Shown in pieces: positions 3,431 through 22,018 of a stretch of 64,000 bases of DNA (its first letter is position 1; each line of letters begins with the position of its first letter). Source of the stretch: Hufsiella arboris (GTDB taxonomy: Bacteria > Bacteroidota > Bacteroidia > Sphingobacteriales > Sphingobacteriaceae); assembly GCF_009834875.1 (NCBI RefSeq), contig NZ_WVHT01000009.1:62001-126000 (forward strand), in the 5' to 3' direction. The translations under genes and the position numbers were made by a program. The notes under the pieces are model-generated. The model searched no databases and was not told the DNA's origin. It saw only the letters and a program-made list of their open reading frames with translations.

Positions 3431-3431
3431 G

Positions 3432-4523: not shown

Positions 4524-4907
4524 TAGGTAGTTCCTGCGTTTTTGTCTAAGATATATTTAATAACACCGATTGATATTAAAAAATTTTATACATCAACTTT
4601 CTCGGTGTAATTTGTCTCCCTGCATACACCTACCACATTACCGCTTAAACAACCGAAGCTCAAAACAGGAAAATTGTCAAGGGTCGCGGCGATAGCAGCG
4701 GTTTATTATACCCATGACTGTTTTCCTGTGTCGCTAACTTTGTGAATACGTTGTTTTTTTGGTGCGGCTGGAAGACAGGTGTGTATGAGGAACGAATACT
4801 TGCCTGTGTGCAGCGGCGAGGCTGGTTGCGAAATGGAACCCGGCGCGTAGCGCGTGGTGCAATGCAGCAGCTTGCCGCAGCGGTGTGGCCCGTCTATCAC
4901 GAAAGTA
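4524..4907. other. Intergenic stretch between defence genes and mobilization block
   Basis: 384 bases between convergent transcription units. I see no convincing gene. Two weak inverted repeats are present: ACACCGA near 4565 against TCGGTGT near 4610, and ACAGGAAAA near 4665 against TTTTCCTGT near 4727. Either could act as a terminator or be part of a mobilization site. The short open frames here have no recognisable domain. Confidence 0.4.
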
Positions 4908-5549: not shown

Positions 5550-6530
5550 CTATCTGCTTATGCTTTGTGAATGAGACTGCTCTTCTTGGTGTTTCTTTCG
5601 TTTCCTACGAGCGATAACTGCATCACCTACTGGATCGGGCGATCCCGCTGCAAATTGCGGCTCCAGCAATATTTCCAATATGCCTTTACCGCCGTCAGGA
5701 CTGTGCTGGTAATCAGTCTGAACGCTCTGCCGGATGACTTCTCTTAATTGGCTGGCTAGTGTCGGCTGGTTTGCTTCCCTTGCTGCATGGTACTGCTGAA
5801 CCTGCTGATTCCGGTTTAATCTCGCATCTATGTTGGCAAAGCTTAAACTCCGGTCAATAGCAGATCCTTTCATTTTGAAATCACTTCTTTCAAAAGAAAT
5901 GCCCTGTACTTCGCTGGTACCGCTACGAAATTTATAAGCAATGGTAATTCCCTTCCTGGCAAGTCCGGCTTCCAGCTCTTTCCAATTGGCGGCTGTTTTC
6001 ATTCCCGCTTTGATGGCATCATGCAATTCATACCTGATTTTGTCTTTTCCTTTCAGTGCCTGGCGGTTCACCAGATCTTTACCCTGGCTCAAATGATAGC
6101 CATACTGCAGGGTAATCTCCTTACAAGCTTTGACATTCCTGACAAAGTTACTTTTGTCGCTAATAGTCTTTCCATTATTGTCAACCCGATTGTAGATCAA
6201 GTGGAGGTGCGGATGAGCGCGGTCGCTGTGACGAACCACTATGTACTGGGTGTTATGAATGCCCACCTTTTCCATGTACTCTTTTGCTCGTTCCACCATG
6301 ATCTCATCGCTTAATTTGAGCAAATCTTCTTTGCTCCAGCTTAATACCAGGTGCCCAACCGCCTTGCCAAGTTCCGGCCTCATCCTCCGTTGAAGATTAA
6401 AATCCTGGATAATAGCTCCGGCGTTTTGCATACGTACGCCCTTGACGGACAAAATCTTTGCCTCCGGTTTATTGACCACGTATCGGACACAGCCCCCAAA
6501 GCTCCTACCGGTAATCGGCTTACCCATCAT
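5550..6530 (-). CDS. Relaxase/mobilization nuclease (MobA-like, HUH type)
   Basis: 326 residues. The protein starts with the MGKPITGRSFGG type N terminus of Bacteroidota relaxases. It has an HUH-like histidine cluster HPHLH at residues 106-110, an upstream His101, and the following LIYNRVDNNG segment typical of these nucleases. The catalytic Tyr cannot be fixed by eye; Tyr18 and Tyr96 are candidates. Its role would be to nick oriT and pilot the transferred strand. The gene overlaps the preceding MobC-like gene by 11 bases, which implies coupled translation. No conjugation machinery is visible, so the element should be mobilizable with a helper rather than self-transmissible, unless tra genes lie left of the window. 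An ATG one codon downstream is an equally good start. Confidence 0.88.
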   Translation of the reverse strand: MMGKPITGRSFGGCVRYVVNKPEAKILSVKGVRMQNAGAIIQDFNLQRRMRPELGKAVGHLVLSWSKEDLLKLSDEIMVERAKEYMEKVGIHNTQYIVVRHSDRAHPHLHLIYNRVDNNGKTISDKSNFVRNVKACKEITLQYGYHLSQGKDLVNRQALKGKDKIRYELHDAIKAGMKTAANWKELEAGLARKGITIAYKFRSGTSEVQGISFERSDFKMKGSAIDRSLSFANIDARLNRNQQVQQYHAAREANQPTLASQLREVIRQSVQTDYQHSPDGGKGILEILLEPQFAAGSPDPVGDAVIARRKRKKHQEEQSHSQSISR

Positions 6531-6894
6531 AATCGCTGAGCTTAGTTAATAGTTCTTCTACCTGTTTAAGAATGGAGCGGCATTTCAAAGCAAGCGTAAA
6601 TAGACCTGCAACATGTGCCTGGTGCGTTAATTGGTTAAGATTATTAGCCAACCCAGCCAACATCCTGAACCAACCGCTTTCCTCGCTGGTGAAACGCGGG
6701 AAAACCCTGGCACTTTTAGCAGCTCTGCGGAACCACTCACTTGGTTTCAGTCCTGCATTTTTTGCACGGCTCTCGATCAACAATCTTTCTGTCGGCGTTA
6801 AACGCACCATCAAAATAGTACTCCGGCTAATCTTTTTCTTCGGTCTGCCAGGCGTCCGTCTTTTCCGTAAATTGTTATTTTCATTGGCAGTCAT
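6520..6894 (-). CDS. MobC-like relaxosome accessory protein
   Basis: About 124 residues from the ATG at 6894. The frame stays open upstream to 7002, but the 6894 start has an AAGGAT sequence about 7 bases upstream and gives the expected N terminus, a basic tail (RKRRTPGRPKKK) before the fold. The core has the pattern of MobC/ribbon-helix-helix proteins: VRLTPTERLLIESRAKNAG, then PSEWFRRAA, then a helical C-terminal half. Such proteins bind oriT and help the relaxase open the DNA. Overlap with the relaxase gene supports the assignment. Confidence 0.8.
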   Translation of the reverse strand: MTANENNNLRKRRTPGRPKKKISRSTILMVRLTPTERLLIESRAKNAGLKPSEWFRRAAKSARVFPRFTSEESGWFRMLAGLANNLNQLTHQAHVAGLFTLALKCRSILKQVEELLTKLSDYDG

Positions 6895-7052
6895 GCATTC
6901 ATCCTTTTGATTCTTAAAATTGACCAACGGGAGCGAGTTCCGGATCGCTCGTAAGGGAGTATCCGGGTTTTTGTATAGCAAAAACATTAACTTGCTCCTC
7001 ACAAGCGCAAAAAAATCGTGCGTTTAGCGTTTGCGAAGAAAACATGCCTTTA
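6895..7052 (-). other. Candidate oriT region upstream of mobC/mobA
   Basis: The leader of the mob genes holds a perfect inverted repeat, GTTTTTG (6967-6973) and CAAAAAC (6979-6985), with a 5-base spacer. A short CTTG/CAAG repeat follows around 6991-7005. Origins of transfer commonly sit just upstream of relaxosome genes and carry such repeats beside the nick site. No nick sequence could be recognised, so this is a positional inference only. Confidence 0.3.
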
Positions 7053-7937
7053 TCATAGTCCTAAGCGTCGGCTTTGACTGGTCAAAGTAGCTTTCAAGTA
7101 CTCATTGATATCGTTAAACTCCTTATAGAATTCTCCTTTGCTTATTCCATTTATTCCTGATTCCTTTAGCTTGGCAGCAGCATTTACTCCTGCCTGATCA
7201 TTATTTAAATACAGGAATACATTCTGATGATTCTTTAACAGATCTACGCTTCGTTGAAGCAAACTCACAGAATTCAGGACCAGGAAATTTGCTTGGGGTT
7301 GCCTGTGTTCCTTAAGTTCTAACAGAGACAGGAAATCGACAAAACCCTCAAAAAGGCAAACGGATTGCGAATCGTTATCCAGGAAAGTTACATCCTTTGG
7401 TGAAGAGGAGCCTTTGAACCAGCGATTGCGCAGTTCATAACCGCCCGAACGATTGAGAAAGCCGATGGCATAATAATTTTTATTAGCCATGCTAAAACCT
7501 ATCTGCTTACAATATCTATTTGCTGTTTGCAAGCTAATTTCTCTTTCACAAAGGTAGCCGGTCAAAGCAAGGCTATGGATTGGACCAACCTCCTTGATAA
7601 TAATCTTCGACTCTGCAGGTTTATTTTGACCTATATCCGTGTGGGGCCGGTAAAAAGAAAGGCCGGCGTTTCCAGAAGTTAATTTTTGCAACAGTTCCGA
7701 AACCGAACAATTGTGCAGGCGTATTCCCAGATCTATTATCGATCCGCCTTCACCGGTACCATGATCATACCAGGCATTTAACTTCGTGCTTACTTTGAAG
7801 GAGGGGTGCTTTTCGTCCCGCAAGGGCGACAGATACCAAAGGTCAGTACCTTTTGAGTAGACCGGGTTAATACCCATTTGGCTCAGGTATTCATTTATTG
7901 GGATCTGCTTTGCTTCATTGCAATTCAAGATTTTCAT
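7053..7937 (-). CDS. CHC2-Toprim primase-like protein of the mobile element
   Basis: 294 residues. The N-terminal part has the segment WYLSPLRDEKHPSFKV and WYDHGTGEGGSIIDL, the pattern of CHC2-type primase zinc-domain relatives in Bacteroidota mobile elements, though classical zinc cysteines are not evident. The second half looks like Toprim: LFEGFVDFLSLL supplies the Glu motif and LYLNNDQAG the Asp-bearing motif in which one Asp is replaced. It probably primes complementary-strand synthesis of the excised or transferred element. It lies between mobC and the excisionase-like gene on the same strand. Confidence 0.8.
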   Translation of the reverse strand: MKILNCNEAKQIPINEYLSQMGINPVYSKGTDLWYLSPLRDEKHPSFKVSTKLNAWYDHGTGEGGSIIDLGIRLHNCSVSELLQKLTSGNAGLSFYRPHTDIGQNKPAESKIIIKEVGPIHSLALTGYLCEREISLQTANRYCKQIGFSMANKNYYAIGFLNRSGGYELRNRWFKGSSSPKDVTFLDNDSQSVCLFEGFVDFLSLLELKEHRQPQANFLVLNSVSLLQRSVDLLKNHQNVFLYLNNDQAGVNAAAKLKESGINGISKGEFYKEFNDINEYLKATLTSQSRRLGL

Positions 7938-7961
7938 TGGATCGGGTGAGTTTGAATAGGT

Positions 7962-8246
7962 TTATTTATCAACAGCCTGGTGACCACTACTTATCCAATC
8001 CAATAATTTTTTACGTGAGAAAAGGAGCTTACCTTCTACTTTACAAAACGGGATCTTTCTTCTTTTCACCAGCCCGTATAAGGAAGTGATCTCATACTTT
8101 ATCAAGACTGCAGCTTCTTTGGTATCCAGTAACGTATCGCCTTCATCCGCTGCTGAAGTTTTGCCTTTTATAGCTTCTTTAATAGAAGACTCAATCAGCT
8201 CCTGGAGCTCTTGTGTCGATAGTGTGGTAACAAACGTTGCGTTCAT
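7962..8246 (-). CDS. Excisionase-family / helix-turn-helix DNA-binding protein
   Basis: About 94 residues from the ATG at 8246. The frame extends to 8291, but the added residues are hydrophobic and atypical. The C-terminal half reads as a MerR/excisionase-type winged helix: LLDTKEAAVLIKYE, SLYGLVKRRKIPFCKVEGKLLFSRKKLLDWI. Proteins of this size next to a primase gene in Bacteroidota elements act as recombination directionality factors or regulators of excision. The gene is co-directional with the primase, 24 bases upstream of it. Confidence 0.8.
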   Translation of the reverse strand: MNATFVTTLSTQELQELIESSIKEAIKGKTSAADEGDTLLDTKEAAVLIKYEITSLYGLVKRRKIPFCKVEGKLLFSRKKLLDWISSGHQAVDK

Positions 8247-8316
8247 AAATAAAAAAATTGATGAACACAAAAGAGTATGAAAATAACTCAACGTTAGTGA
8301 ACGAAGTTCAACGTCG

Positions 8317-9753: not shown

Positions 9754-10548
9754 ATGCCGCTAGATGTAAACAGAAGGAAAGAACTGCTCCGACTAGTTCC
9801 TGAAGGAAGCCTGGTTTCGCGTTCCTGGTTGCAAAATCAGCAGTTCAGTGTAAATGCTATCGACAACCTTGTGAAAAGCCGGCAATTAGAAACCATTAAA
9901 GGTGGGATTTATAAAAGAGATGGATCTGAAATCCAATGGCCAGCTGTTGTTTATTTTTTACAACACCAAAAGGCAAGCGATCTTACCATAGGTGGCCTGA
10001 CTGCATTGGAATTACAGAAGCTTGGCCATTATATCCCTTTAAATGAGCAGCTGGCAATCCATTTGTACGGGTCAGACAGCCTGCCCCAATGGGCGAAACT
10101 CATTGTGCCGGATGTCCGCTTCAAGAAACATAGTGTCACCGATCTTTTAGGTTATCAGCCAGATGACTTTATACGAAAGCAGCTGGCCAAATTTACTAAA
10201 ACATTAAACTGGAACGGCGCTCACGAAGGACTGGTCATGTCGACACCAGAACGTGCCATCTTGGAGGTACTGAACGGAGTGCCCAACAAGATTGGATTTG
10301 AACATGCGTATGAACTGATGCAGGGACTGACCAGTTTATCGCCTCGTGCTTTACAGCAACTATTGGAATTATGCCATAACTTCAAGGTAAGAAGACTGTT
10401 CTTTTGGTTCGCCGAAAGGTTAAACTACAGTTGGCTGAACCGGATAGATCGTTCCAAAATTGATTTGGGCAGCGGCAACCGGGTTATCGTCAAAGGCGGT
10501 AAACTGGATAAAAAATATTTGATCACCGTGCCGGAAAATTATGAGTAA
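9754..10548 (+). CDS. abiEi: AbiEi family antitoxin/transcriptional repressor (type IV TA)
   Basis: 264 residues. The N-terminal 60 residues form a winged-helix-like domain (RRKELLRLVPEGSLVSRSWL, then LETIKGGIYKR). The rest matches the AbiEi antitoxin C-terminal region of Bacteroidota (TPERAILEVLNGVP, LNRIDRSKIDLGSGNR). Type IV antitoxins counter the toxin without binding it and repress the operon; the palindromes upstream fit this. The 3' end overlaps the toxin start by 8 bases (ATGAGTAA), the usual coupled arrangement. The antitoxin frame is intact although the toxin gene is interrupted. Confidence 0.88.
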   Translation: MPLDVNRRKELLRLVPEGSLVSRSWLQNQQFSVNAIDNLVKSRQLETIKGGIYKRDGSEIQWPAVVYFLQHQKASDLTIGGLTALELQKLGHYIPLNEQLAIHLYGSDSLPQWAKLIVPDVRFKKHSVTDLLGYQPDDFIRKQLAKFTKTLNWNGAHEGLVMSTPERAILEVLNGVPNKIGFEHAYELMQGLTSLSPRALQQLLELCHNFKVRRLFFWFAERLNYSWLNRIDRSKIDLGSGNRVIVKGGKLDKKYLITVPENYE

Positions 10549-11469
10549 GAAAGAAGAATACGAGCAGCAGGTACGCCTACTTGTCAGCATACTACCTATC
10601 ATTGACAAGGAAAAAATTTTTGCACTCAAAGGCGGTACGGCTATCAATCTGTTTTACCGGCCATTTCCACGGCTATCAGTTGATATTGACCTGCTCTACC
10701 TGCCCATGGACGATCGGGAAACCGCTTGGCAGAATATCAAAGAAGCCTTCGTGCGTATAGCAGGTGGCATCAAAAAAGTCATGCCTGCTGCCAAGATCCA
10801 AAATACAACGCTCCAACAAGAAGACTCACTTCGGATCATTGTGAGCCTGGGTGACGTGCGTATTAAAATTGAGTTGTCACCGGTGATCAGAGGAACGGTT
10901 TTCGCACCGCAGCGGATGTCGGTACGAGAAGAAGTTGAAAAAGACTTTGGTTATACTGAGATACTGGTCGCCTCGCATGCTGATCTTTACGCAGGTAAGA
11001 TTTGTGCGGCTCTGGACCGTCAACATCCAAGAGACCTGTTTGATGTGAAACAGTTATATGAAAACGAAGGACTGACAGACGACTTGCGTAAAACAGTAAT
11101 CGTGTTTTGATTAGCCATTTCCGGCCGATATCCGAATTATTGAACCCTAATCGTAAGGACATCGCTCAGATATATGAAACAGAATTTCGACAGATGACAA
11201 CTGTTGAGGTTACATTGGAAGAACTGCTCCAGGTACGCGAAAGGCTGATAGCCGACCTTAACCAGAGTATGACCGATGATGAACGCAATTTTCTGTTATC
11301 GTTTAAAAATAAAAAGCCAGAATGGTCGCTGCTGGGTGTCGCTGATCCTGATGCAGTTGCCGCTTTACCGTCAGTTCGGTGGCGCATGATCAACCTAGAA
11401 AAAATGTCGGCTGCCAAACACCAGCAAGCGTATGCAAGATTAGCAGCTATATTATTCCCCAGGCAATAA
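10541..11469 (+). pseudogene. abiEii: AbiEii nucleotidyltransferase toxin gene, interrupted by a frameshift
   Basis: The first part (10541-11110) encodes the nucleotidyltransferase core: LKGGTAINLF (Gly31-Gly32), SVDIDL with Asp48 and Asp50, and a third acidic residue in RIKIELSP (Glu111). This is the AbiEii/AbiGii family that AbiEi antagonises. The frame stops at TGA 11108-11110 within GTGTTTTGATT. The remaining helical C-terminal part continues in the -1 frame (LISHFRPISELL...) to 11469. One extra T in the TTTT run at 11105-11108 would restore a full protein of about 309 residues. It may be a real inactivating mutation, a slippage site, or a homopolymer sequencing error. Confidence 0.85.
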
Positions 11470-12018: not shown

Positions 12019-12591
12019 ATGCGAAAAATAAAGATCTTCCTGGCCTCATCTAATGAGCTAAAACCAGAACGTGACCAATTTGAAATTGAAATTTATCGTA
12101 AAACAAAAGGCTGGTTTGATAAAGACATATTTCTTTATCTTGACATTTGGGAAGACATGACCGCCCGAATGTCGATAGCCGGTTCCCAAAGTGAATATGA
12201 TAAATTTGTAAAAGAGGCCGACCTTTTCGTATTTCTTGCTTATTCCAAAGTTGGTAGCTACACTGAAGAGGAGTTTGAAAATGCGATCGGACAGTTCAGC
12301 TCAACAAAAAAGCCGTTTATCTATACTTATTTCAAGATTCCACCACCAGATAATGCAGATCCCAGCCTTGGGGAATTCAAAAAGAAGCTGAATCAATTGA
12401 AACATTTTTATGCCAACTTCGCTGACTTTAATGATCTCTGGAACCAATTCAACAAAGAGCTGGAAAGATTAGAAGCAGACGGCTTCACCGAAAACAAAAG
12501 GCCTGATTATAACGCCGGAACTAAAACGATCAATCAAACCGCTGAAAAGATCTACAATATTGATAAGATCGATAAAGCAAATTTTTCGTGA
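12019..12591 (+). CDS. TIR-like/DUF4062-like effector with C-terminal adaptor motif
   Basis: 190 residues, first gene of a four-gene operon. Residues 3-105 have a TIR/flavodoxin-like pattern: strand KIFLASS, helix NELKPERDQFE, strand YLDIWEDM, then EADLFVFLAYSKVGSYTEEEFENA and strand FIYTYF. The acidic SYTEEEFE stretch (Glu83-Glu87) lies where TIR NADases keep their catalytic glutamate, so NAD cleavage is possible but unproven. I recall this family as a short effector in Bacteroidota conflict systems. The C terminus (177-189, KIYNIDKIDKANF) repeats a motif present in the next gene (57-69), suggesting homotypic contact. Six bases separate its stop from the next start. Alternative: a nucleotide-binding signalling domain without hydrolase activity. 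Confidence 0.7.
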   Translation: MRKIKIFLASSNELKPERDQFEIEIYRKTKGWFDKDIFLYLDIWEDMTARMSIAGSQSEYDKFVKEADLFVFLAYSKVGSYTEEEFENAIGQFSSTKKPFIYTYFKIPPPDNADPSLGEFKKKLNQLKHFYANFADFNDLWNQFNKELERLEADGFTENKRPDYNAGTKTINQTAEKIYNIDKIDKANFS

Positions 12592-12597
12592 TAAATT

Positions 12598-13929
12598 ATG
12601 GCAGGTCCAAGCAATGTCGCCGCTAATAATCTGATTATCCAAGGTGTAACAGATGATAAGATCACGCTGCTTGTCGACGGCAAGGCACAGGAGATAGATA
12701 AAAGGCTGGATGTGCTGCAGACATTAATGGAGCAGATGGCCACAAAATCTGTTCAATCTGCCAATAAGATTTATAATATCGGCTCCATTACCAACGCCAA
12801 TTTCGGCTTTGTAATGGGGCAGGCAGGACATGATAAATCATTGCCTTCAGAATTGGCGCAGAATCTTGTAGGGGAAGGTAATGGGTGGATAAAAAGCCTG
12901 CAACAGGAACTGGTGAAACAAGGTATAGCAGTTGGCAACCAGCCATGGAATATTTTTCAAAATTACGGTTGGCTGGTAGAAACTTTTTTATCAAAACTTT
13001 GCACAGCGCCCGGTCAGGAGAAAACATTGCGCCGCCTTTCGTTTATGGCGGAAGCATACCAAGCCTCCCTTCGGTATCTATGTTATGTCCAAATCGCGCA
13101 GATACTGCAAATGGGAAACAAACCCAAGATGCCCATCATGTCAGAGTTCATCCAAATGGAAGGAAACCAATACCTCAGCTTCCATTATATGAGCCTGTTA
13201 CTAATCGCCACAGATGCACTGGCACAGAATGGGTATATGAAGGAGATACCGAAATTTACCAACGAATTGAAAGATACTGGTTCAGCATTGTACGGAACTG
13301 CGCTTTTCTTGAATAACAAACGCCAGGATTTGAGAGACAATAAAATTCCGGAGGATGAGGCCCTCCCAAGGCTGCTTGATGAATACCTAACAGCCTTGGT
13401 GTACTGGTTACGAAAAGTTTCTTTTATTGCAAAATATAGGCTGGTTTCCATTAAAGACATCAACCTCAATTACAGTTTAGGAACCGCAGTAAATTTTGTT
13501 CACCTGTTCGGAGAATTGCATGGGATTTATAGTGCCGGAGACGCTATAGATGAGGATTATAATAAAAAGTCGCTTGAAGGTTCCTACACTTTCAACAAAA
13601 GCATTTTATTGTTCAAAGGAACTGATGTATCCTCAGCGATGGACAACATCCAAGACCAACGCTCCTTTCTTTCACTTTCACCTTTCGTAATAGATCAAAG
13701 TGTTTTTGCAGCCAAGGCAACACAAACACCGGAGATAGGTTATTACACAGGTTATGAAAAATCTAAACGACAGTATAATTATTCACAATATAAAAATGAA
13801 CTGTCTTTTGGTGAGTCAGGAGATATCAGCTCCAATAAATCACTAACTGTATCAGAGCAAAACAACCATCAGCCGCCACTGGATAATTTGTTTGAACAAC
13901 TGGAAGATTTGCTGAACCCTTTCAAATAA
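12598..13929 (+). CDS. Putative adaptor of the STAND system, unknown fold, shared motif near N terminus
   Basis: 443 residues, no signal peptide. Residues 11-50 (NNLIIQGVTDDKITLLVDGK and a short helix) look like a small effector-associated linker module. Residues 57-69 (KIYNIGSITNANF) match the effector's C-terminal motif at KIYNI, the following I, and ANF. The remaining approximately 360 residues are mostly helical, include aromatic-rich segments (YLCYVQIAQILQ, ALVYWLRKVSFIAKYR), and end in a Gln/Asn-rich tail. I do not recognise the domain. It lies between the effector and the STAND genes with 6-base gaps on both sides. Physical bridging between STAND NTPase and effector is an inference from motif and order. 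Confidence 0.65.
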   Translation: MAGPSNVAANNLIIQGVTDDKITLLVDGKAQEIDKRLDVLQTLMEQMATKSVQSANKIYNIGSITNANFGFVMGQAGHDKSLPSELAQNLVGEGNGWIKSLQQELVKQGIAVGNQPWNIFQNYGWLVETFLSKLCTAPGQEKTLRRLSFMAEAYQASLRYLCYVQIAQILQMGNKPKMPIMSEFIQMEGNQYLSFHYMSLLLIATDALAQNGYMKEIPKFTNELKDTGSALYGTALFLNNKRQDLRDNKIPEDEALPRLLDEYLTALVYWLRKVSFIAKYRLVSIKDINLNYSLGTAVNFVHLFGELHGIYSAGDAIDEDYNKKSLEGSYTFNKSILLFKGTDVSSAMDNIQDQRSFLSLSPFVIDQSVFAAKATQTPEIGYYTGYEKSKRQYNYSQYKNELSFGESGDISSNKSLTVSEQNNHQPPLDNLFEQLEDLLNPFK

Positions 13930-13935
13930 AACAAC

Positions 13936-15654
13936 ATGAACCAGGTAAATTCACCATTTAAATTCCTGGATTCTTATCAGCAGGCCGACGCGGATGTCTT
14001 CTTTGGTCGTGAAAAAGAAACTATTGATTTGTATGGAGCGTTGAGTGGTGTGAAGCACCTGCTCGTTTACGGCCCTTCTGGTTCAGGAAAAACAAGTCTG
14101 GTTGAGTGCGGACTTCGCAACCAGTTTTCGGATGCGGATTGGTATGCACTTAGTATCCGAAGGAGTGCCGATATTAATGCTTCTGTTTTTGCCAGTATCA
14201 ACAAAGCATTGAAAGATCAAATAGCATTGGATCCCATTACCAGAATGCCGGTGGATCCTGAAATGGAATTTGGACATGCCGTCGAAAAATTATTCACTGA
14301 ACGTTATCAGCCGGTTTACCTGCTGTTTGATCAGTTTGAGGAATTGTTGATATCAGGACTATCAAATGAAAAGAGTAAATTCTTTATCTCACTCAACAAG
14401 TTGATTCGTAATAAACTTCCCTGTCGAATCCTCCTTATTATGCGGGAAGAGTTCATCGGGCATCTGTCAGAATTTGAAGCGCTTTGTCCCAGTATTTTCC
14501 AGTACCGGTTTAGAGTGGAGAAAATGGGACGAAAAAATGTTGAAGAGGTTATTTATCAAATACTAGAAGCCCCAAAATACCGGGCTTATTTTAATGTTAA
14601 AGACAGCAGGAAACTAGCCGAAAGTATTTTATCAAAATTGCCTGATAAAAAGATGGAAATAGAACTGGCGCACGTCCAGGTGTTTTTGGGAGAATTGTGG
14701 GGGCGAGCCTTAAATGAAAAAAAGAACGACGATAGATTGCCGCTGTTGAGTGTGGATCTGGTGCATAATGGTGACGATCTTGAGACTATCCTGGAAAGCT
14801 TTTTGAGAAAACAAATGGGCGATCTCAACGAAAGTTTTGGTGAAAACGTACCGCTGGAATTACTCGCTGCAATGATCACAGACAAGTTTACCAAACTTCA
14901 ATTAAGTGAAGCAGCCATAGCGGCGGACCTGGCGCATAAAAAAGTAATCGCTATAAAACCTGTCGCTGACCTGCTGAAAGACCTCGAATATCATCGTATC
15001 ATACGCACCCTGAAAATAGGTGATGAGGCCCAATACGAAATAAGTCATGATCTACTGGCGCTGGTAGTGGGACAGAACCTTACCGAAGAAATGAAGATGC
15101 GTGAGAAGGCCGACGATATTTACAAAGTGTATGGCGAACGGCAGGGCTTATTTACGCAGGATGACATTGATTACCTACGGCCCTTTGAACAAAATCTTTC
15201 TTTCCCACCCGACTTACAGAAAAGGATAGACGAAAGTATTGATATGATAAAAAAGAAAAGGGATAAAGAAAGAAAGAGACAACGTGCAATTATTAGTATT
15301 GTTTCAGTCGCAGCAGTTGTAGCAGTGGTCTTTGCTTTATTTGGTTTATTTATGTGGCAAAAGGCTCAAGTGGAGGCTGAAAGGGCAATACTGGAGGCTG
15401 CAAAGGCGAAATTGCAAACCCAAAAGCTACATAAAGCTTTAGACTCGGTTTCGGTAGCAAACATGAAATTTGAAGAAGCAGACAAAAATCGTAAAGCAAT
15501 ACAAATAAATAGCTTGCTGCAAAAAGCAAAAAGCTATGAATCACTAGATGAAAAAAAACTGGCAATAACTACTCTGGAAGAAGCGCTGAAGATAGATTCA
15601 AAAAATGTCGACGTAAACACATATTTACAAAAATTAAAAAGCAAATACCAATAA
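13936..15654 (+). CDS. Membrane-anchored nSTAND1-type NTPase (receptor half)
   Basis: 572 residues. The N terminus (PFKFLDSYQQADADVFFGRE) is the signature of nSTAND1 proteins. Walker A is GPSGSGKTS (46-54) and Walker B YLLFDQFEEL (128-137), followed by a helical and winged-helix region (ISHDLLAL near 375). A basic stretch (KKKRDKERKRQR, about 438-449) precedes one membrane segment (about 451-474), which puts the NTPase in the cytoplasm and the C terminus in the periplasm. The periplasmic part is coiled coil plus one TPR-like unit (about 525-560). Canonical relatives continue after the membrane segment into WD40 repeats. Here the chain ends and the next gene supplies them. It should oligomerise and hydrolyse ATP or GTP as a signalling switch. 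Confidence 0.85.
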   Translation: MNQVNSPFKFLDSYQQADADVFFGREKETIDLYGALSGVKHLLVYGPSGSGKTSLVECGLRNQFSDADWYALSIRRSADINASVFASINKALKDQIALDPITRMPVDPEMEFGHAVEKLFTERYQPVYLLFDQFEELLISGLSNEKSKFFISLNKLIRNKLPCRILLIMREEFIGHLSEFEALCPSIFQYRFRVEKMGRKNVEEVIYQILEAPKYRAYFNVKDSRKLAESILSKLPDKKMEIELAHVQVFLGELWGRALNEKKNDDRLPLLSVDLVHNGDDLETILESFLRKQMGDLNESFGENVPLELLAAMITDKFTKLQLSEAAIAADLAHKKVIAIKPVADLLKDLEYHRIIRTLKIGDEAQYEISHDLLALVVGQNLTEEMKMREKADDIYKVYGERQGLFTQDDIDYLRPFEQNLSFPPDLQKRIDESIDMIKKKRDKERKRQRAIISIVSVAAVVAVVFALFGLFMWQKAQVEAERAILEAAKAKLQTQKLHKALDSVSVANMKFEEADKNRKAIQINSLLQKAKSYESLDEKKLAITTLEEALKIDSKNVDVNTYLQKLKSKYQ

Positions 15655-15678
15655 AAAGGTAATAAAGAACGGGTGGGT

Positions 15679-18216
15679 ATGAAATACTTAATTTTTGCAT
15701 TTCTTTTTTTCATTTTGACAGGAAATGTCAATGCGCAATGTGATGTTGTTAACTTTAAAAAGTTGATTAAAGCAGGTGACAAATTTGCCGTCGAAAATAA
15801 CTACGAATTAGCTGTTAAAAGCTATTCTGCAGCGATGATCGCCTGTGCCGATAACGCGAAGTTCACGCAAGAAAAAATTGTACAGATTTTTCGAAAAATT
15901 GATAAATTAAGGGAGGATGCAATTTTAGAAAAGCAAAAAGCGCAGAGCCTTACATTTACTGCAATAGCTAATGAACAATTGGACAAAAATCCAACATTCG
16001 CTTTACGGCTTGCAGAACTGGCCTGGAAAGCATCTTCTGGCAGCGCTGATAAATTTTTAGCCCAAACTTTAATCTTTAACGGACGTTATCTACAGGCTAA
16101 AAAAATGAGGGCGTTTTACCTAAATAGTCTTCCTCACGATAGCCCTGTTAATAGTGCAGTTTTCTCGCCTAGTGGAAAAGAAATTGTCACGACTTCAGAT
16201 GGCAAAAGTGCCATAATCTGGAATGATTCCGGTAAATTAAAGGCTTATCTTAATGGACATAACAACGGTATTAATAGCGGTGTTTTCTCATCCGACGGAA
16301 AAAAAATTGTCACGGCTTCAAAGGACAGCACTGCCAAAATTTGGGATGCTAGTACCGCTAAACTAATTGTCAACTTAATCGGGCATAAAGATTATGTTAA
16401 TAGTGCCGTTTTTTCGCCAAACGGAAAACTAGTTGTCACGGCATCTGCGGATAAAACTGCGAAGATCTGGGATTCGGCTTCCGGCAAGCTGTTGGCCGAC
16501 CTTAAAGGTCATACTGAATCTGTTCATAGCGCTGTTTTCTCGCCTAATGGAAAACAAATTGTAACGGCTTCATGGGACAGAACAGCCAAAATCTGGGATG
16601 CTGGTTCAGGTAAACTAATGGCTGACCTGAAAGGACACACTAGCAATGTTAGTAATGCCGTTTTCTCGCCCGATGGGAAAGAGATTGTAACAGTTTCATT
16701 TGACAAGACTATAAAAATTTGGGATGCTGCCTCGGGTAAAATTATAGTTAGTCTTATAGGTCACGCCAGCTACATTAACAGTGTCGATTTCTCGCCCGAT
16801 GGTAAAAAAATTGTGACGGCTTCATATGACAAAATTGCCAAAATCTGGGATGTTGCTTCAGGTAAACTGGTGGCTGATCTTATTGGACATACTGACGTTG
16901 TTATTAGCGCTGTTTTCTCGCCCAATGGGAAAGAGATAGTGACGACTTCTTCTGACAAAACTGCCAAAATCTGGGATTCTGCTTCGGGTAAACTAATGAC
17001 AGAACTTATAGGGCATACTGACGCCGTTTTTAGCGCCGTTTTTTCGGCTGATGGAAAAATAGTCACGACTTCTGGGGACAACACAGCGAAAATATGGGAT
17101 ATTAATTCCGGTAAACTGATTACTGATATTACTGGACATAGTCGCAAAGTTAACAGTGCAGTTTTCTCACCTAGTGGAAAAGAAATTGTCACGGCCTCAA
17201 ACGATAAAAGTGCCAAAATCTGGAACGTTACTTCGGGTGAACTAATAGCTGATCTTATTGGACATACTGACATTGTTAGTAGCGCTGTTTTCTCGCCCGA
17301 TGGAAAAGAGATTGTAACTGCTTCATTGGACAAAACTGCTAAGATCTGGAATGTTGCTTCTGGCAGACTTCTGACTAACCTAAAAGGACATAAGCGCGGA
17401 GTTATTAGTGCTGTTTTCTCGCCCGATGGTAAAAAAATTGTTACAGCTTCAAATGACAATTCTGCCAAAATCTGGGACGTTGCTTCAGGTAAACTGATGG
17501 CTGACCTAACGGGAATTGGCGATGTTCATAGTGCTATTTTCTCACCGGACGGAAAGAAAATTGTGACGGCTTCATTGGATAACTCAGCCAAAATTTGGGA
17601 TGCGTCTTCCGGTAAATTAATGGCTGACCTAAAGGGACATACTGGCTCTGTTTTGACCGCTTTTTTTTCACCAGATGGAAAAAAAATCGTCACAGCTTCA
17701 AATGACAAGACTGCCAAAATCTGGGACGTCGCTTCCGGCAAACTGGTGGCTAACTTTACGGGACATACCGATGCTGTTCGTAGCGCTGCTTTCTCGCCCG
17801 ATGGAAAAGAGATAGTAACGGCTTCATCTGACAAAACTGCTAAAATCTGGGAAGTTGCTTCAAGTAAACTGAGGGCTGACCTAACCGGACATACTGGCTC
17901 TGTCTGGAGTGCGGCTTTTTCACCTAATGGAAAAAAAATTATCACGGCTTCAATTGACAACACTGCTAAGATATGGGACGCCGCTACCGGGAAAATGATG
18001 GCTAACCTTACAGGACATACGGATGCTGTTAACAGCGCTATTTTTTCGTCCGATGGAAAAAAAATTGTTACAGCTTCAGATGACAATTCTGCCAAAATTT
18101 GGCTTACATCCGATGGAATTCTAGACTGGTTAAAAACAGCACCAATTTATAAACTAACGCAACAGAATCTAAAAGACTTAGGAATTGATTTTATTGATCT
18201 TAAAAAGATACGATGA
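15679..18216 (+). CDS. Exported WD40-repeat sensor with 16 near-identical repeats
   Basis: 845 residues from the ATG at 15679; a GTG two codons upstream is less likely. A Sec signal peptide (MKYLIFAFLFFILTGNVNA) has a probable cut before QCDVV. Residues 20-150 are helical and TPR-like (GDKFAVENNYELAVKSY), then carry the LTFTAIANEQLDKNPTFALRLA segment that in fused STAND-TM-WD40 proteins lies between membrane helix and propeller. Sixteen WD40 units of about 42 residues follow (16141-18100), enough for two propellers. The framework (FSPDGKKIVTAS.D.TAKIWD.ASGKL) is nearly invariant while a few positions change in every unit. The gene follows the STAND gene by 24 bases. Periplasmic sensing of phage, envelope damage or a peptide is an inference. 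Confidence 0.85.
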   Translation: MKYLIFAFLFFILTGNVNAQCDVVNFKKLIKAGDKFAVENNYELAVKSYSAAMIACADNAKFTQEKIVQIFRKIDKLREDAILEKQKAQSLTFTAIANEQLDKNPTFALRLAELAWKASSGSADKFLAQTLIFNGRYLQAKKMRAFYLNSLPHDSPVNSAVFSPSGKEIVTTSDGKSAIIWNDSGKLKAYLNGHNNGINSGVFSSDGKKIVTASKDSTAKIWDASTAKLIVNLIGHKDYVNSAVFSPNGKLVVTASADKTAKIWDSASGKLLADLKGHTESVHSAVFSPNGKQIVTASWDRTAKIWDAGSGKLMADLKGHTSNVSNAVFSPDGKEIVTVSFDKTIKIWDAASGKIIVSLIGHASYINSVDFSPDGKKIVTASYDKIAKIWDVASGKLVADLIGHTDVVISAVFSPNGKEIVTTSSDKTAKIWDSASGKLMTELIGHTDAVFSAVFSADGKIVTTSGDNTAKIWDINSGKLITDITGHSRKVNSAVFSPSGKEIVTASNDKSAKIWNVTSGELIADLIGHTDIVSSAVFSPDGKEIVTASLDKTAKIWNVASGRLLTNLKGHKRGVISAVFSPDGKKIVTASNDNSAKIWDVASGKLMADLTGIGDVHSAIFSPDGKKIVTASLDNSAKIWDASSGKLMADLKGHTGSVLTAFFSPDGKKIVTASNDKTAKIWDVASGKLVANFTGHTDAVRSAAFSPDGKEIVTASSDKTAKIWEVASSKLRADLTGHTGSVWSAAFSPNGKKIITASIDNTAKIWDAATGKMMANLTGHTDAVNSAIFSSDGKKIVTASDDNSAKIWLTSDGILDWLKTAPIYKLTQQNLKDLGIDFIDLKKIR

Positions 18217-18295
18217 TGCTAAATTGAATTATTGCCGAAACATGGAAATAACACAAAAAGAAAATGACAGTTAAATTAAAGGTTAGTACGAAGTA

Positions 18296-18519
18296 ATTAA
18301 TTTGCGAATTTTCTTTTATCGCATTAATAATTAATGCCAAATCGCAATGTGATCCTGCTGCTTATAGGAATTGAAAGGAAGGTGATGATTCGCCGTTAAG
18401 AAGAATTACGAGTTGGCTGTTAAGCGTTGTCCTTTAGCCGTAATTGCATGCCTTAATAATACGCCTATTGCCCGAAACATTGTACCGATTTATAAATATC
18501 TCGCGAGATCCGTGTAATT
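18296..18519 (+). pseudogene. Decayed 5' fragment of a second WD40-sensor gene
   Basis: The DNA parallels the start of the intact sensor gene. CGCAATGTGAT of the signal-peptide junction is kept, and one frame reads AVKKNYELAVKRCPLAVIACLNN against AVENNYELAVKSYSAAMIACADN in the intact protein, followed by ARNIVPIYKYL against EKIVQIFRKI. A one-base shift separates it from the upstream KEGDDS part, and stops interrupt the signal peptide. No WD40 repeats remain. It records a former paralogue or a tandem duplication of the sensor gene. Confidence 0.75.
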
Positions 18520-18559
18520 TTTAATCTTTCATAGTATTGCGATAAGTGCGAAAATTATT

Positions 18560-18609
18560 GTCGCTATACTCCGTATAGTGCCAAGCTTAAATTTTTCTGT
18601 TGCAATATT
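18560..18609 (+). repeat. Right direct repeat flanking the four-gene module
   Basis: Partner of 11549-11598. The palindrome GTCGCTATAC-tcc-GTATAGTGCC (18560-18582) keeps pairing through a covarying position (G-C in the left copy, T-A here). The second element GTTGCAATAT lies 39 bases on, as in the left copy. It sits between the decayed sensor fragment and the integrase stop codon. Confidence 0.6.
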
Positions 18610-18657
18610 TCAGTGAAATATTTTAATTGAGGATAATAAACATTATCTGAATATTAC

Positions 18658-19896
18658 TCAAATGGCAGCGTTTATCATTTCGTCAACAACAGGATCGCCA
18701 ATATCATCTAAATAAATTTGTGTCGTTTTCAAACTATCATGTCCCAATGACTGCCCGATAATTTCTTTGGATACTCCGCTCACCCGCAAGATGGTCGCAT
18801 AAGAGTGCCTGGCCACATAAGTAGTTACTGTTTTTTCGATACCTACTGATGAAGCTAGCGCTCTAATATTATCATTGACCATTTTCAATACTTTCTGCTT
18901 TCTGTATCGTATTGCCTTCGCGGTATTATGCCGTTTGTAAAGGATAGGAAAGATATAGCCAGCGTCACTATTGCCATCTAGTTTGCTGTAATGGTTCAGG
19001 ATCTCAACAGCTGCCGGGTGCATTTTGAATCGAAAATCCTCTTTTGTTTTTGCGCGTGTATAATGTAACTCACCATCAATGATGTTTTCCCATTTTAAGC
19101 TGGCCAAATCTGTAAAATTAAGACCCTGGCAGTAGAACATAAACAAAAAATAATTCCGCGAATTGATTTTAGCATCATCTTTTTTATCAATCTGCACCTC
19201 TGTAATTTGTGTAATCTGCGCCTTGGTTATAGCCCTTTTCTTCGTCCTGGGATTGTTGTATTTAGAAAAAGCGAAGTTCTTAAAAGGATAATGGTTTTCC
19301 GGACAGACTTTATCAGTCATGGCACCTTTCCAAACTGTTCGAAAGGTTCGAAAGAAAACACTCCTGGTTGTAACCGCATTTCCGCGCTTGATTAGATACG
19401 CTTCATATTTCTTTAAAAAATCGAGGCCAATATTGACAAATGGATAATCTTTCTTGTCGGTGAACCTTTGTAGACTTTGCAATGTAGCCCGATAGGTTGC
19501 GGCGTACCCCAAACGGTCTGCCTCCTTGAGTCGTTCGATTTCCCGCTCGAAATAGGAGTACAGGGAAAAGCATTTTATCTCCTTATTAGTATTGGTGAGT
19601 TTCAGCACTATTTTTTTGATATCGTCAAAATTGACCACCGTATCGTTTTCCCCGGCGTTGAGCAGGTATAGATCCACTTTTGAAGAAATGTTACGAAGCA
19701 GAGGATTAATAGTGTGATGCTCCGGATGGCTCTTAGATACCTGTTGTGCTTTTTCATTCCATTGTTCTGGGATAGCCGACTTTTTAACGCTAATAAACTG
19801 GCTTTGCCGGTTGATAGTAATGCGAAGCATGATCGGACATTCGCCGTTGCTTAGTTGTTTAGTTTTTCTTAAAATTATCTTGTTTGAAACTGACAT
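18658..19896 (-). CDS. Tyrosine recombinase (integrase) of the element
   Basis: 412 residues with the layout of Bacteroidota integrases: arm-binding N-terminal region (1-90), SAM-like core-binding domain (about 105-215) and catalytic domain (about 220-405). Visible catalytic residues are Arg363-His364 (VARHSYAT), His386 (SLGHDS) and nucleophile Tyr395 (TQIYLDD). At the usual first-arginine position there is Gln257 (YCQGLNFTDLASL). Arg281 (YTRAKT) may substitute, as reported for IntDOT of CTnDOT, which also lacks the first arginine. The gene's 5' end faces the tRNA attachment site 166 bases away, so this enzyme most likely made the insertion. Confidence 0.93.
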   Translation of the reverse strand: MSVSNKIILRKTKQLSNGECPIMLRITINRQSQFISVKKSAIPEQWNEKAQQVSKSHPEHHTINPLLRNISSKVDLYLLNAGENDTVVNFDDIKKIVLKLTNTNKEIKCFSLYSYFEREIERLKEADRLGYAATYRATLQSLQRFTDKKDYPFVNIGLDFLKKYEAYLIKRGNAVTTRSVFFRTFRTVWKGAMTDKVCPENHYPFKNFAFSKYNNPRTKKRAITKAQITQITEVQIDKKDDAKINSRNYFLFMFYCQGLNFTDLASLKWENIIDGELHYTRAKTKEDFRFKMHPAAVEILNHYSKLDGNSDAGYIFPILYKRHNTAKAIRYRKQKVLKMVNDNIRALASSVGIEKTVTTYVARHSYATILRVSGVSKEIIGQSLGHDSLKTTQIYLDDIGDPVVDEMINAAI

Positions 19897-20062
19897 AGTG
19901 CAAGTGCTAATGCAAGTGGCCGACGTAGGTACAACATAGGTACAACAAATCCTTGTCTAACTAAAATTAACGAAACTTAATAAAAGCTATTCAATCAGTT
20001 GTATATAAGCAAGTTATGAATATTTTTACAAACCTCAAAATGCAAAAATAGTCGATTTTCAA

Positions 20063-20107
20063 GCATGGCATGCAAAAGGTCATCGGTTCGACTCCGATAT
20101 TCTCCAC
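20063..20107 (+). repeat. attR: 3' fragment of a tRNA-Ala(GGC) gene
   Basis: The sequence contains the anticodon loop ATGGCAT (anticodon GGC), the 3' anticodon strand GCAAA, variable loop AGGTC, T arm ATCGG-TTCGACT-CCGAT, 3' acceptor strand ATTCTCC and discriminator A. The 5' half of the tRNA is absent, so this is not a functional gene. It is the target-site duplication left when an element inserts in the 3' end of a tRNA gene. The original terminator follows. The element therefore lies to the left, with the reconstituted tRNA at its other end outside the window. Confidence 0.88.
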
Positions 20108-20111
20108 TAAC

Positions 20112-20136
20112 AAAAGCTTCATTTTTTGAAGCTTTT
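20112..20136 (+). terminator. Rho-independent terminator of the former tRNA-Ala gene
   Basis: Stem AAAAGCTTC (20112-20120) and GAAGCTTTT (20128-20136) with a T-rich loop and T tail. Its symmetry also lets it end the convergent lacI-family gene, whose stop codon begins at base 20139 on the minus strand. Confidence 0.75.
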
Positions 20137-21231
20137 TTACTTTAAATCTTTTTTTCGTCCGTCCGGTTTTATGCTGTTAGCATCATCGACAAGTCGCGAA
20201 TTTGAACTGGCTGTCGATTGTCTCTTATATAATTTCGTAGGTAAAATTCGCGTTTCAAATTCTTCAACAGGCCGCTTGGCTTGAATCAGGCTTAACAGCA
20301 TTTCAACGGCATTTTTGCCGATATCAAAGCCTGGCTGGTAAACCGAACTCAGCGGAGGAAATAACACGTCGGCCAGATTGGTGTTTGTAAAACCGAGTAA
20401 AGCGATATCTTCAGGAATTTTTATATGTAATTTGTGCAATAAAGCAAGTGTAGTAGTAGTAATTCTGTCGGACGCCGTTAAAATCGCATCGGGCCAGATA
20501 TCCAAGGAAAGCAGTTCGTTCAAAGCCTTTTCAATTTCCTCCGTAGTTTTACCACCGTGAGGACAATACTTAATATAATCGTCGTTAATTGTTATGCCTG
20601 AATCTGTAAGCGCCTTTTTATATCCTTCCAACCGTTCGGAAGTTATAGAGACGTTAGCCGAGCTGGTGATGGTCGCTATATTTTTGAATCCCGACTGTAA
20701 CAGATGATCAGTTGCGTCATAGGCGCCTTTATAATTATCAGCAATAACTTTGTGTGTATCAATCTCACTGCTCACCCTGTCAAAAAAAACGATCGGTAAT
20801 CCCTGGGAATGCAGACGTTTCAAATGATCAATGTTTTTAGTCTCTGTTGACAAGGATATAAGTAAGCCGTCAATCGACCGGTATGTCAAATGCTCAACGT
20901 TTTGAACCTCCAAATCAAACGATTCATGGGTTTGTGTGATAATCACATTGTACCCATTGTTATGCGCAACCGACTCTATGCCATCAATTACTTGCGAAAA
21001 AAAATGATTATCTATTGTTGAAACAACTATTCCGATTGATTTACTGCGTCCTTGCTTTAAGCTTTGTGCTATTGGATTAGGTCGGTAGTTATGTTCACGG
21101 GCATAATTCGTGACAAGTTCCTTTGTCTTTCCACTAATTTCGTAGCTATCTCTTAACGCTTTTGAAACGGTCGACACCGATAATTTCAGTTCCTTCGCAA
21201 TGTCTCTTATCGTGATCGCTTCAAAATTCAT
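20137..21231 (-). CDS. LacI family transcriptional regulator
   Basis: 364 residues. An N-terminal LacI helix-turn-helix (TIRDIAKELKLSVSTVSKAL, residues 7-26) with hinge (NYRPNPIAQSLKQGRS) precedes a periplasmic-binding-protein-like sugar domain (IGIVVSTIDNHFFSQVIDGI onward). It is divergent from the YhcH, GH88 and uxuA genes, which suggests control of glucuronide use with a hexuronate or disaccharide effector. It is the first chromosomal gene right of the element. The last approximately 30 residues are hydrophilic and poorly typical, but the frame shows no sign of disruption by the insertion. Confidence 0.93.
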   Translation of the reverse strand: MNFEAITIRDIAKELKLSVSTVSKALRDSYEISGKTKELVTNYAREHNYRPNPIAQSLKQGRSKSIGIVVSTIDNHFFSQVIDGIESVAHNNGYNVIITQTHESFDLEVQNVEHLTYRSIDGLLISLSTETKNIDHLKRLHSQGLPIVFFDRVSSEIDTHKVIADNYKGAYDATDHLLQSGFKNIATITSSANVSITSERLEGYKKALTDSGITINDDYIKYCPHGGKTTEEIEKALNELLSLDIWPDAILTASDRITTTTLALLHKLHIKIPEDIALLGFTNTNLADVLFPPLSSVYQPGFDIGKNAVEMLLSLIQAKRPVEEFETRILPTKLYKRQSTASSNSRLVDDANSIKPDGRKKDLK

Positions 21232-21257
21232 ATAAATTAAATGTTGGACAAATTAAC

Positions 21258-21322
21258 AAAAGCGTTTGTATTTCGTCTGTTAAGCCGCTCGGATTGATCG
21301 TACAACTAAAACGTTTGCGTAA
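21258..21322. promoter_or_regulatory. Candidate LacI-family operators
   Basis: Two similar sites lie between the divergent genes: AAAAGCGTTTGTA (21258-21270) and AAAACGTTTGCGTAA (21308-21322). They share AAA-CGTTTG, close to the CG-centred half-sites of LacI-family operators, and both precede the lacI-family start and the YhcH-like gene start. Confidence 0.35.
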
Positions 21323-21397
21323 ATAAAGCCGTTTCCTTTTTTAATATGATTCTAATTGCTCGTAATATTGAGCAACCGATTAAAGTAACTCATTCAA

Positions 21398-22018
21398 ATG
21401 AAAGGCAGATCACTACATTTTCAGCTTTATATGCTGTTATTATTACTACCATCTTTAATAACCTCGGCTCAAACTATGCGCAATAAAACTCCGGTCAGCG
21501 ACGCAAAAAAATGGGTAAAAAGCCGTAAATGGAGCAATGGTTGTAAGTTAAACCCACACCAATCAGTAAACGCTTCCGAGTTCTATTATCAATATCACGC
21601 CAATAAAGCGGTGTGGGACAAGGTTTTTACTTTTATTAAAGACCACAATCTTGATAGCCTTCCGGCTGGTAAATATCCTGTTGACAGCACAAACACTTAT
21701 GCAAGTATCACAGAAGGCCCGTCGAAAGAGCCCTCACAAGCTAAATGGGAGTCGCACAAAAAGTATATCGATTTGCAATATGTAATTAAAGGCAAAGAAA
21801 GTATCGGAGTTCTTGACGTCGATAAAGCGTCTGTCGAAAAGCCGTATGACGAGACCAAGGATGTTGCAAATTACAGCTCTGATGGCGGAACGTATTACGA
21901 AGCGTCCGCGGCTGCATTCTTTTTATTTTTCCCGCAAAATGCGCACCGGCCAAGCATCAAGGTAGATGGCTTTGATGTTGTTAAAAAACTTGTTATCAAG
22001 ATAAAAGTGGCAGAATAA
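21398..22018 (+). CDS. YhcH/YjgK/YiaL family protein, exported
   Basis: 206 residues. A signal peptide (about 1-24, LYMLLLLLPSLITSAQ) precedes a cupin-like YhcH/YiaL domain (WESHKKYIDLQYVIKGKESIG, FFLFFPQNAHRPSI), in which the His and Glu residues probably bind a metal. Enterobacterial members are cytoplasmic and linked to sialic acid or other sugar catabolism. Here export suggests action on sugars released in the periplasm. The stop codon overlaps the GH88 start by one base (TAATG), so the two are co-translated. Confidence 0.85.
   Translation: MKGRSLHFQLYMLLLLLPSLITSAQTMRNKTPVSDAKKWVKSRKWSNGCKLNPHQSVNASEFYYQYHANKAVWDKVFTFIKDHNLDSLPAGKYPVDSTNTYASITEGPSKEPSQAKWESHKKYIDLQYVIKGKESIGVLDVDKASVEKPYDETKDVANYSSDGGTYYEASAAAFFLFFPQNAHRPSIKVDGFDVVKKLVIKIKVAE

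Follow-up and report, generated by a model that had tools for sequence, protein, structure and literature searches.

The operon and the two halves of the receptor

The stretch of DNA analyzed here (the window) comprises 64,000 nucleotides of Hufsiella arboris (GCF_009834875.1, contig NZ_WVHT01000009.1, positions 62,001-126,000, forward strand). It contains an operon at 12019-18216 of four co-directional genes, orfA (190 amino acids, aa), orfB (443 aa), orfC (572 aa), and orfD (847 aa), which, judging from their sequences, probably constitute one conflict system directed against phages or competitors. The product of orfC is a STAND nucleoside triphosphatase (NTPase) with a membrane helix, and the next gene, orfD, encodes a WD40 protein that is predicted to be exported; the subject of this analysis is the receptor that these two genes may form (Table 1).

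Residues 7-374 of OrfC matched nSTAND1 (PF20703) with 111.8 bits against a curated cut-off of 27.1, and by this profile the protein is a member of the nSTAND1 family. The residues of its P-loop and Walker B type motifs (G46, G49, G51, K52, T53, S54, D132, Q133, E135, and E136) were invariant in alignment A1 (7 rows) and, except for the neighbours of G46, also in alignment A8 (24 rows). A sequence-only reading of this DNA had held that the STAND chain ends after its membrane helix and a TPR-like unit, and that a basic stretch before the helix predicts an N-in topology. Both statements were borne out, as were the coordinates given for the receptor (13936-18216). The helix (residues 451-469) is followed by a TPR_8 match (residues 526-557) of 20.9 bits, which lies under the curated cut-off of 25.7, and the charge pattern around the helix, with nine lysine or arginine residues (K/R) in the preceding 15 residues and two in the following 15, predicts that the N-terminus is inside.

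Relatives were collected by a contig profile search with a 7-row STAND alignment, which yielded 335 relatives. The best 80 of these, from 79 loci, were taken; together with the window (W) and six relatives from a separate genome search they gave 86 loci, which were classified by their open reading frames (ORFs). Because only the best 80 were used, the tally leans to close relatives, and many of the loci are contigs of metagenome-assembled genomes that are possibly misassembled. The sequence-only reading had raised the question of how many relatives are split, and the answer was 17 of 86: in W, L021, L029, L036, L039, L041, L044, L047, L049, L052, L056, L087, L088, L097, L102, L104, and L105, the STAND gene stops shortly past the helix and is followed by a distinct sensor gene. 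As the same two-gene layout recurs in this way, the split in the window is not a matter of chance.

The ORF of orfD is counted from a GTG at 15673, and the ATG at 15679 is the likelier start. The earlier statement that this gene opens with a signal peptide was upheld from that ATG, where a simple home-made rule, used here in place of SignalP, predicted the peptide MKYLIFAFLFFILTGNVNA with a cut directly before QC (QCDVV). The signal peptide and the linker are separated by a module some 60 residues long. When module and linker of the window were used to build an iterated profile, it recovered, at E 1.6e-26 to 7e-10, 19 sensor genes that belong to 15 of the 17 split loci. The linker itself had been likened to the segment that follows the helix in fused proteins, and it does align there. 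The window linker alone matched fused STANDs or helix-sensor genes of L062 (6e-4), L074 (0.006), L094 (0.008), L069 (0.013), L060 (0.018), L076 (0.022), and L075 (0.23), and with the iterated linker profile, nine loci of this kind gave E values of 1e-17 to 1e-11. In these, the distance from the helix to the start of the linker is 7-10 residues (L062, L094, and L076), 2 residues (L071 and L075), or 71-125 residues (L069, L060, L074, and L058).

The window thus has its helix in orfC and its linker and WD40 units in orfD, rather than all three on one chain as in a fused STAND-TM-WD40 protein. The view that a fused receptor was here divided into two polypeptides holds for the two-gene layout; because the secreted half has an additional Cys/TPR-like module before the linker, the split is more than a plain cut of a fused gene. 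It is extremely improbable that the window merely contains a fused gene broken by a frameshift or sequencing error. Two relatives (L048 and L086) do look like frameshifts, but the sensor gene encodes a signal peptide of its own as well as a further module with no match in the fused STANDs of the list, and the layout recurs in 17 loci; a frameshifted fused gene was rejected on these grounds.

The first half of the module profile also matched the STAND tails of L104 (3e-8), L073 (4e-9), L083, and, weakly, L039, and outside these tails its positions 1-46 matched no fused STAND of the list. Because of these matches, TPR-like units of one kind are present on both partners in some loci. TPR-TPR binding between OrfC and OrfD is possible; the STAND tails vary, and 9 of 18 lack cysteine. 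The suggestion that both partners are TPR-like was therefore sustained in part: the STAND tail carries the sub-cut-off TPR_8 unit, whereas the N-terminal segment of the window sensor by itself matched no TPR model and is read as TPR-like because relatives match (TPR_11 in 4 of 19 sensor genes).

Table 1. Coordinates of the operon, its parts, and adjoining features in the window.
Feature	Position	Strand	Basis
orfA, 190 aa, TIR-like/DUF4062-family putative effector	12019..12591	+	family alignment A5
orfB, 443 aa, conserved partner	12598..13929	+	41-72% identity to 17 relatives
orfC, STAND NTPase (putative transducer), one membrane helix, TPR-like tail	13936..15654	+	nSTAND1 E 7.7e-32
STAND membrane helix, residues 451-469	15286..15342	+	mean hydropathy 2.92; K/R 9 before, 2 after
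TPR-like unit in tail behind helix, residues 526-557	15511..15606	+	TPR_8 E 3.7e-4
orfD, predicted secreted sensor: signal peptide, Cys/TPR-like module, coil, linker, WD40	15673..18216	+	ORF, family matches, profiles
Signal peptide, 19 residues from ATG 15679	15679..15735	+	rule-based prediction
Putative docking module: TPR-like, Cys at mature positions 2 and 37, coil start	15736..15915	+	iterated profile, Cys count
Linker common to some fused STAND-helix-sensor proteins	15916..16038	+	segment and profile searches
16 WD40 units of about 42 residues each	16135..18141	+	WD40 E 1.1e-162, 16 stretches
Degenerate remnant of second secreted-sensor gene	18286..18499	+	tblastn E 7e-4, three stops
Tyrosine recombinase, adjoins operon	18658..19896	-	Phage_integrase E 1.3e-16
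AbiEi/AbiEii toxin-antitoxin pair, neighbouring cargo	9754..11110	+	family match
MobA-type relaxase and MobC/NikA genes	5550..7002	-	context

Location and repeat structure of the sensor

A signal peptide was scored in 18 of the 19 sensor genes (exception, L052), compared with 144 of 563 background ORFs, that is, the other ORFs in the loci of the contig profile search (Fisher p 7e-10), and with none of the 86 STAND genes. Since the 19 sensor genes were found by their mature module, this count is independent of the signal peptide itself. When the first sensor of each split locus was taken, 14 of 17 had a signal peptide (p 2e-6). In 60 of 64 STANDs with a helix, the stretch before it is richer in K/R than the stretch after it; there was one tie, and three cases were opposite (L080, L104, and L021). 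Furthermore, the first 60 mature residues of 21 sensors, some of which are near-copies, contained an even number of cysteines (0, 2, 4, or 6) in 19 cases: two in 12 sensors, none in four, four in one, and six in two, the remaining two having one. The mature window sensor has exactly two cysteines, both in the module, and its remaining 766 residues have none. Behind the helix, the fused protein of L069 matched GldM_3rd (3e-17) and GldM_4th (4e-18), and that of L053 matched PG_binding_1 (3.6e-8); GldM is located in the periplasm. A gene for an outer membrane protein (OMP) beta-barrel lay directly behind the fused STAND in four (L064, L082, L084, and L085) of six loci that had been picked because a signal-peptide gene follows, and not in L063 and L081.

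Because the signal peptides, the positive-inside rule, the paired cysteines, and the GldM, PG-binding, and OMP partners of relatives agree, the WD40 part of the window receptor and the sensors of its split relatives very probably lie outside the cytoplasm. Several observations weigh against this placement. The first sensors of L039, L041, and L052 fail the signal-peptide rule, though their N-termini look hydrophobic; both L105 sensors carry a single cysteine in the module; the PP-binding match in L053 and the pYEATS match in L030, both behind the helix, do not point to the periplasm; and three of the 86 loci (L033, L046, and L098) encode fused proteins with no detected helix. From these last three it follows that the same kind of sensor can be cytoplasmic. 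The proposal that the WD40 part of this receptor class works outside the cytoplasm is thus retained for the window and the split relatives, and fails as a rule for the whole class.

A different account of the export is that the N-terminus of OrfD is an uncleaved anchor, or that OrfD goes to the outer membrane or beyond and meets the STAND protein upon release or return. The cleavage site is predicted by rule only, and the OMP genes behind four of the six fused loci would suit such a route. However, signal peptidase I sites typically have small residues before the cut, and the small residues before the predicted cut, together with the following Gln, resemble an ordinary site of this kind; we regard this account as very unlikely, and favour a periplasmic sensor.

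The WD40 units were compared in 12 in-register units of the 16, leaving out the first, the last, and two units shifted by one residue. Positions 1, 10, 11, 14, 15, 19, 21, 23, 27-29, and 42 were invariant, and variability peaked at positions 22, 4, 6, 3, and 37, a pattern that would suit a putative binding face whose surface varies. That the units have recently evolved in concert, like those of fungal NLRs, was tried as an explanation and rejected. The 12 units average 65% protein and 72% DNA identity, below the 85% that serves as the rule for high internal conservation in the available part of a published paper (PMC4986451), and the proportion of synonymous differences (pS) is high (0.56-0.59; 14 units, including the two that are out of register by one residue). 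In the same 14 units, the ratio of nonsynonymous to synonymous proportions (pN/pS) was 1.03 at six positions picked as variable from the same data and 0.47 elsewhere, which is no demonstration of positive selection.

Among the fused relatives, the nSTAND1-helix-GldM_3rd-GldM_4th protein of L069 (6983-9079) has a second STAND gene directly after it, and the OMP beta-barrel gene overlaps the fused STAND by 4 bp in L064 and L084. In L051 (7001-9400), the part following the helix matched no Pfam family and by eye looks like a GH19/lysozyme-type domain.

Split and multiplied sensors in related loci

Besides the split loci, the tally of 86 comprised 41 loci that are fused with a helix (five of them run off the contig), 15 with a second type of break, seven with a helix and a short or TPR tail but no recognised sensor (L035, which ends with its contig, L048, L070, L073, L083, L086, and L099), the three fused loci without a detected helix, and three incomplete ones (L045, L055, and L107). 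The seven loci with no recognised sensor bear on another reading, in which the secreted WD40 protein belongs to the envelope or the extracellular space in its own right, its gene is merely a neighbour, and the STAND protein senses via its own short tail. The STAND protein of L099 has a TPR-rich tail, and no sensor gene was recognised after its gene; in L070 the gene that follows is large and has a signal peptide but is of a different kind, and in L083 the available sequence ends 408 bases behind the STAND gene. This reading also draws on the linker profile, which matched just 4 of 19 sensor genes (that of the window, the first of L029, L021, and L104); what ties the other sensors to the STAND gene is position and module. 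On the other hand, 15 of the 17 sensor genes start within 25 bp of the STAND gene, six of them with a 4-bp overlap; the window sensor and the three others carry the linker seen behind the helix in relatives, and on the STAND tree the split state and the fused state replace each other repeatedly. A mere neighbour is therefore judged unlikely.

The STAND tree (67 rows, quick method, SH-aLRT (Shimodaira-Hasegawa-like approximate likelihood ratio test) support only) left out the 15 second-break loci, the three incomplete loci, and L065. Split and fused states need 12 changes on it and are scattered; the split label is no more clustered than shuffled labels (15 changes versus a shuffled mean of 15.4; at least 10 are forced by the starred branches), and the tree gives no direction of change between the two states. 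The fused STAND-WD40 protein of L046 (5812-9309), one of those without a detected helix, sits among split systems on the tree.

More than one sensor gene can stand behind one STAND gene: three in L029 (by sequence one WD40 and two LRR), two in L036, and two in L105 (LRR). The first 95 residues were more alike than the rest in all five pairs of tandem sensors. Identical residues numbered 85/95 versus 98/289 in the L036 pair, 91/95 versus 574/782 in the L105 pair, and 54/95 versus 90/359 and 39/95 versus 79/391 in two of the L029 pairs; the two LRR sensors of L029 hardly differ in this respect (49/95 versus 182/380). In the window, the decayed start of a sensor gene, including its signal-peptide region, lies between orfD and the recombinase gene; its DNA local score is 57, whereas 500 shuffles gave at most 33. 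This remnant shows, as far as its sequence goes, that the window once had a second sensor and shares the past of the tandem loci.

In the second type of break (15 of 86 loci), the NTPase gene stops around residue 355, short of the HD motif (residue 368 in the window), with L094 breaking earlier than the others, and a separate gene, mostly starting with MxYELxHD or similar, bears the helix and sensor. Such an HD-helix-sensor gene was found in 14 of the 15 loci, the exception being L096, whose available sequence ends soon. Three stand in tandem in L058 (8072-10697) and two in L074 (41-8365); the gene lies upstream of the NTPase gene in L072 and L079 and about 4 kb away in L093.

Both types of break fit a constant switch with a detachable and multipliable sensor. 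For the split systems, we consider the chances about even that they are plug-in receptors, in which one inner-membrane STAND protein would be common to exported sensors with genes of their own (WD40, LRR, WG, or other propellers) whose docking module is kept while the recognition domain is swapped or multiplied. Different sensors would then presumably bind different ligands. The second break, in which up to three HD-helix-sensor genes accompany one NTPase gene, would have reached the same result independently. The following observations tell against a receptor made of the STAND protein and an exported sensor. The L039 sensor escapes the module profile and that of L041 gives only 0.017, and these two sensors start 347 and 144 bp behind the STAND gene; the helix of L088 is weak (best mean 1.02 against a cut-off of 1.5); and the STAND tails are poorly conserved (mean column identity 17%), which is odd for a common docking site. 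The small share of sensor genes with the linker counts in the same direction.

When the module profile was run against 395 genomes of the phylum, 40 matched; the one strong match was in the genome of the window itself, and none of the remaining 39 was better than E 2e-6. Among 29 further loci from that scan, 18 (L109-L126) were inspected and no STAND partner was recognised; L126 is the kinase locus also numbered L028. This locus (L028, 6261-8998, minus strand) has a Ser/Thr kinase-like gene (by eye) with a helix and a TPR-like tail, behind which lies a TPR-like protein with a hydrophobic N-terminus that matches the module profile at 8e-23, a similar two-part layout with a kinase. In the distant split system of L021 (4426-11469), patatin and caspase-domain genes precede the STAND gene and an exported propeller-like protein is encoded behind it.

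Effector genes, proposed mechanism, and genomic setting

Members of the orfA family alignment (A5) matched TIR_2 (2 of 8, best E 4.7e-5), DUF4062 (2 of 8, 6.4e-4), and NPHP3 (2 of 8, 5.5e-4). Window OrfA alone matched none of the three, which speaks against its assignment, and a profile search of the PDB with the family gave nothing below E 0.06. E85 is invariant in all eight members; its correspondence to E97 of KpSwz is only putative. OrfB had no Pfam or NCBIfam match. It is encoded directly 5' of the STAND gene in its 17 relatives, mostly with a 4-bp overlap, and in close relatives it stands alone or is fused behind a TIR-like domain (e.g., L030, L049, and L051) or EAD11 (L036); in distant loci, CHAT or caspase proteins occupy this position. 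The operon brings an uncharacterised and well conserved partner family to attention. No EAD family was found in the four window proteins (for OrfD, among the best 25 of 61 families). The available text of a 2026 preprint describes DUF4062 proteins as TIR-like NADases with anti-phage action (PMC13174449). Because the orfA family weakly matches TIR_2 and DUF4062, loss of NAD (nicotinamide adenine dinucleotide) and growth arrest are the likely output, by family.

We consider it fairly probable that the operon encodes an abortive-defence receptor with exchangeable periplasmic sensors, in which exported OrfD would signal via OrfC to the effector. OrfD would be exported and would dock with its N-terminal Cys/TPR-like/coil module on the periplasmic tail of the STAND protein, while its WD40 face would bind a ligand of the envelope or of an invader. 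Binding may release or cluster the STAND protein across the membrane; the STAND oligomer would activate TIR-like OrfA through OrfB, and activated OrfA would degrade NAD and stop the cell. One STAND protein could serve several sensors because the docking module is separate, as the tandem genes of L029, L036, and L105 also suggest. This model yields a testable prediction on the triggering of a STAND protein across the membrane. If the plug-in reading is true, a bacterium could check for threats at the envelope or before entry by means of several sensors that feed one death switch, and sensors in tandem behind a single switch would make recognition modular and combinatorial.

STAND and NLR receptors are usually regarded as cytoplasmic single-chain sensors. 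What sets the system apart from single-chain STANDs is that the sensors are, by prediction, exported, separate, and sometimes multiplied, and a separately exported sensing half offers a direct genetic handle on whether bacterial STANDs sense outside the cytoplasm. Avs and other bacterial NLR-related STANDs are alike by inferred logic, with sensor repeats, an NTPase oligomer, and a killing effector; Avs-type STANDs hold effector and sensor on the STAND chain, whereas in the window system the STAND chain has a helix, the sensor is predicted to be exported, and the effector has a gene of its own. LuxP and LuxQ are a pair of a periplasmic binding protein and a membrane transducer. In GlnH/GlnX, as far as the available text goes, a soluble exported sensor likewise reports via a membrane protein to a cytoplasmic output (PMC9769921); no homology is claimed. 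Unlike both pairs, the system described here would have a STAND NTPase as its output, and repeat-protein sensors that can be multiplied behind one transducer.

The nSTAND1 conflict systems (Kaur et al., 2021; PMC8195603) share the nSTAND1 core, separate effector genes, and EAD11, which is present in relative L036; unlike the case of orfD, the accessible portion of that paper makes no mention of a secreted partner sensor or signal peptide. Anti-phage STANDs have C-terminal sensors and N-terminal effectors, according to the part of the source available (PMC10907252). The DGR (diversity-generating retroelement)-diversified STAND/CLec sensors treated in that part also belong to STAND conflict systems, some with targets predicted to be periplasmic, and their FGE-sulfatase sensor domain also occurs in L034; here, the sensor is instead a separate WD40, LRR, or WG protein. 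The orfA family may resemble the Swarozyc/DUF4062 NADases, to judge from its weak TIR_2 and DUF4062 matches and its invariant Glu; in the available text, the Swarozyc DUF4062 protein itself assembles with the phage portal, whereas sensing would here fall to the STAND and the exported protein (PMC13174449). Conflict systems of the nSTAND1 and other types are described in excerpts of three papers, and some of these systems have domains predicted to be extracellular or periplasmic (PMC8195603; PMC7159879; PMC10907252). A literature search of one paper collection, in the parts of its papers available, turned up no account of a STAND with a secreted partner sensor.

PADLOC gave no match for OrfA or OrfB, only weak partial NTPase matches for OrfC (best 5.6e-4), only repeat matches to a HEAT-ARM model and a CARF model for OrfD, and no fitting system model. 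The lack of a fitting model would accord with developmental or self/non-self envelope signalling in place of defence. This role seems doubtful to us, since mobilization genes and AbiE adjoin the operon and effector-type domains (TIR-like, caspase, CHAT, and patatin) occur in the system or its relatives; we retain defence as the preferred role. A megablast search of the STAND-sensor stretch against phages gave no match, and none of 30 plasmid records found by tblastn covers 80% of the STAND. No tRNA genes were found within the 64-kb window, and the ends of an element were not located because positions 1-5000 and 18400-21400 of the window share no exact direct repeat of at least 14 bases. Genes for the MobA-type relaxase, MobC/NikA, a Toprim protein, and a helix-turn-helix protein lie upstream at 5550-8291, and a mobilizable element probably carries the operon as cargo.

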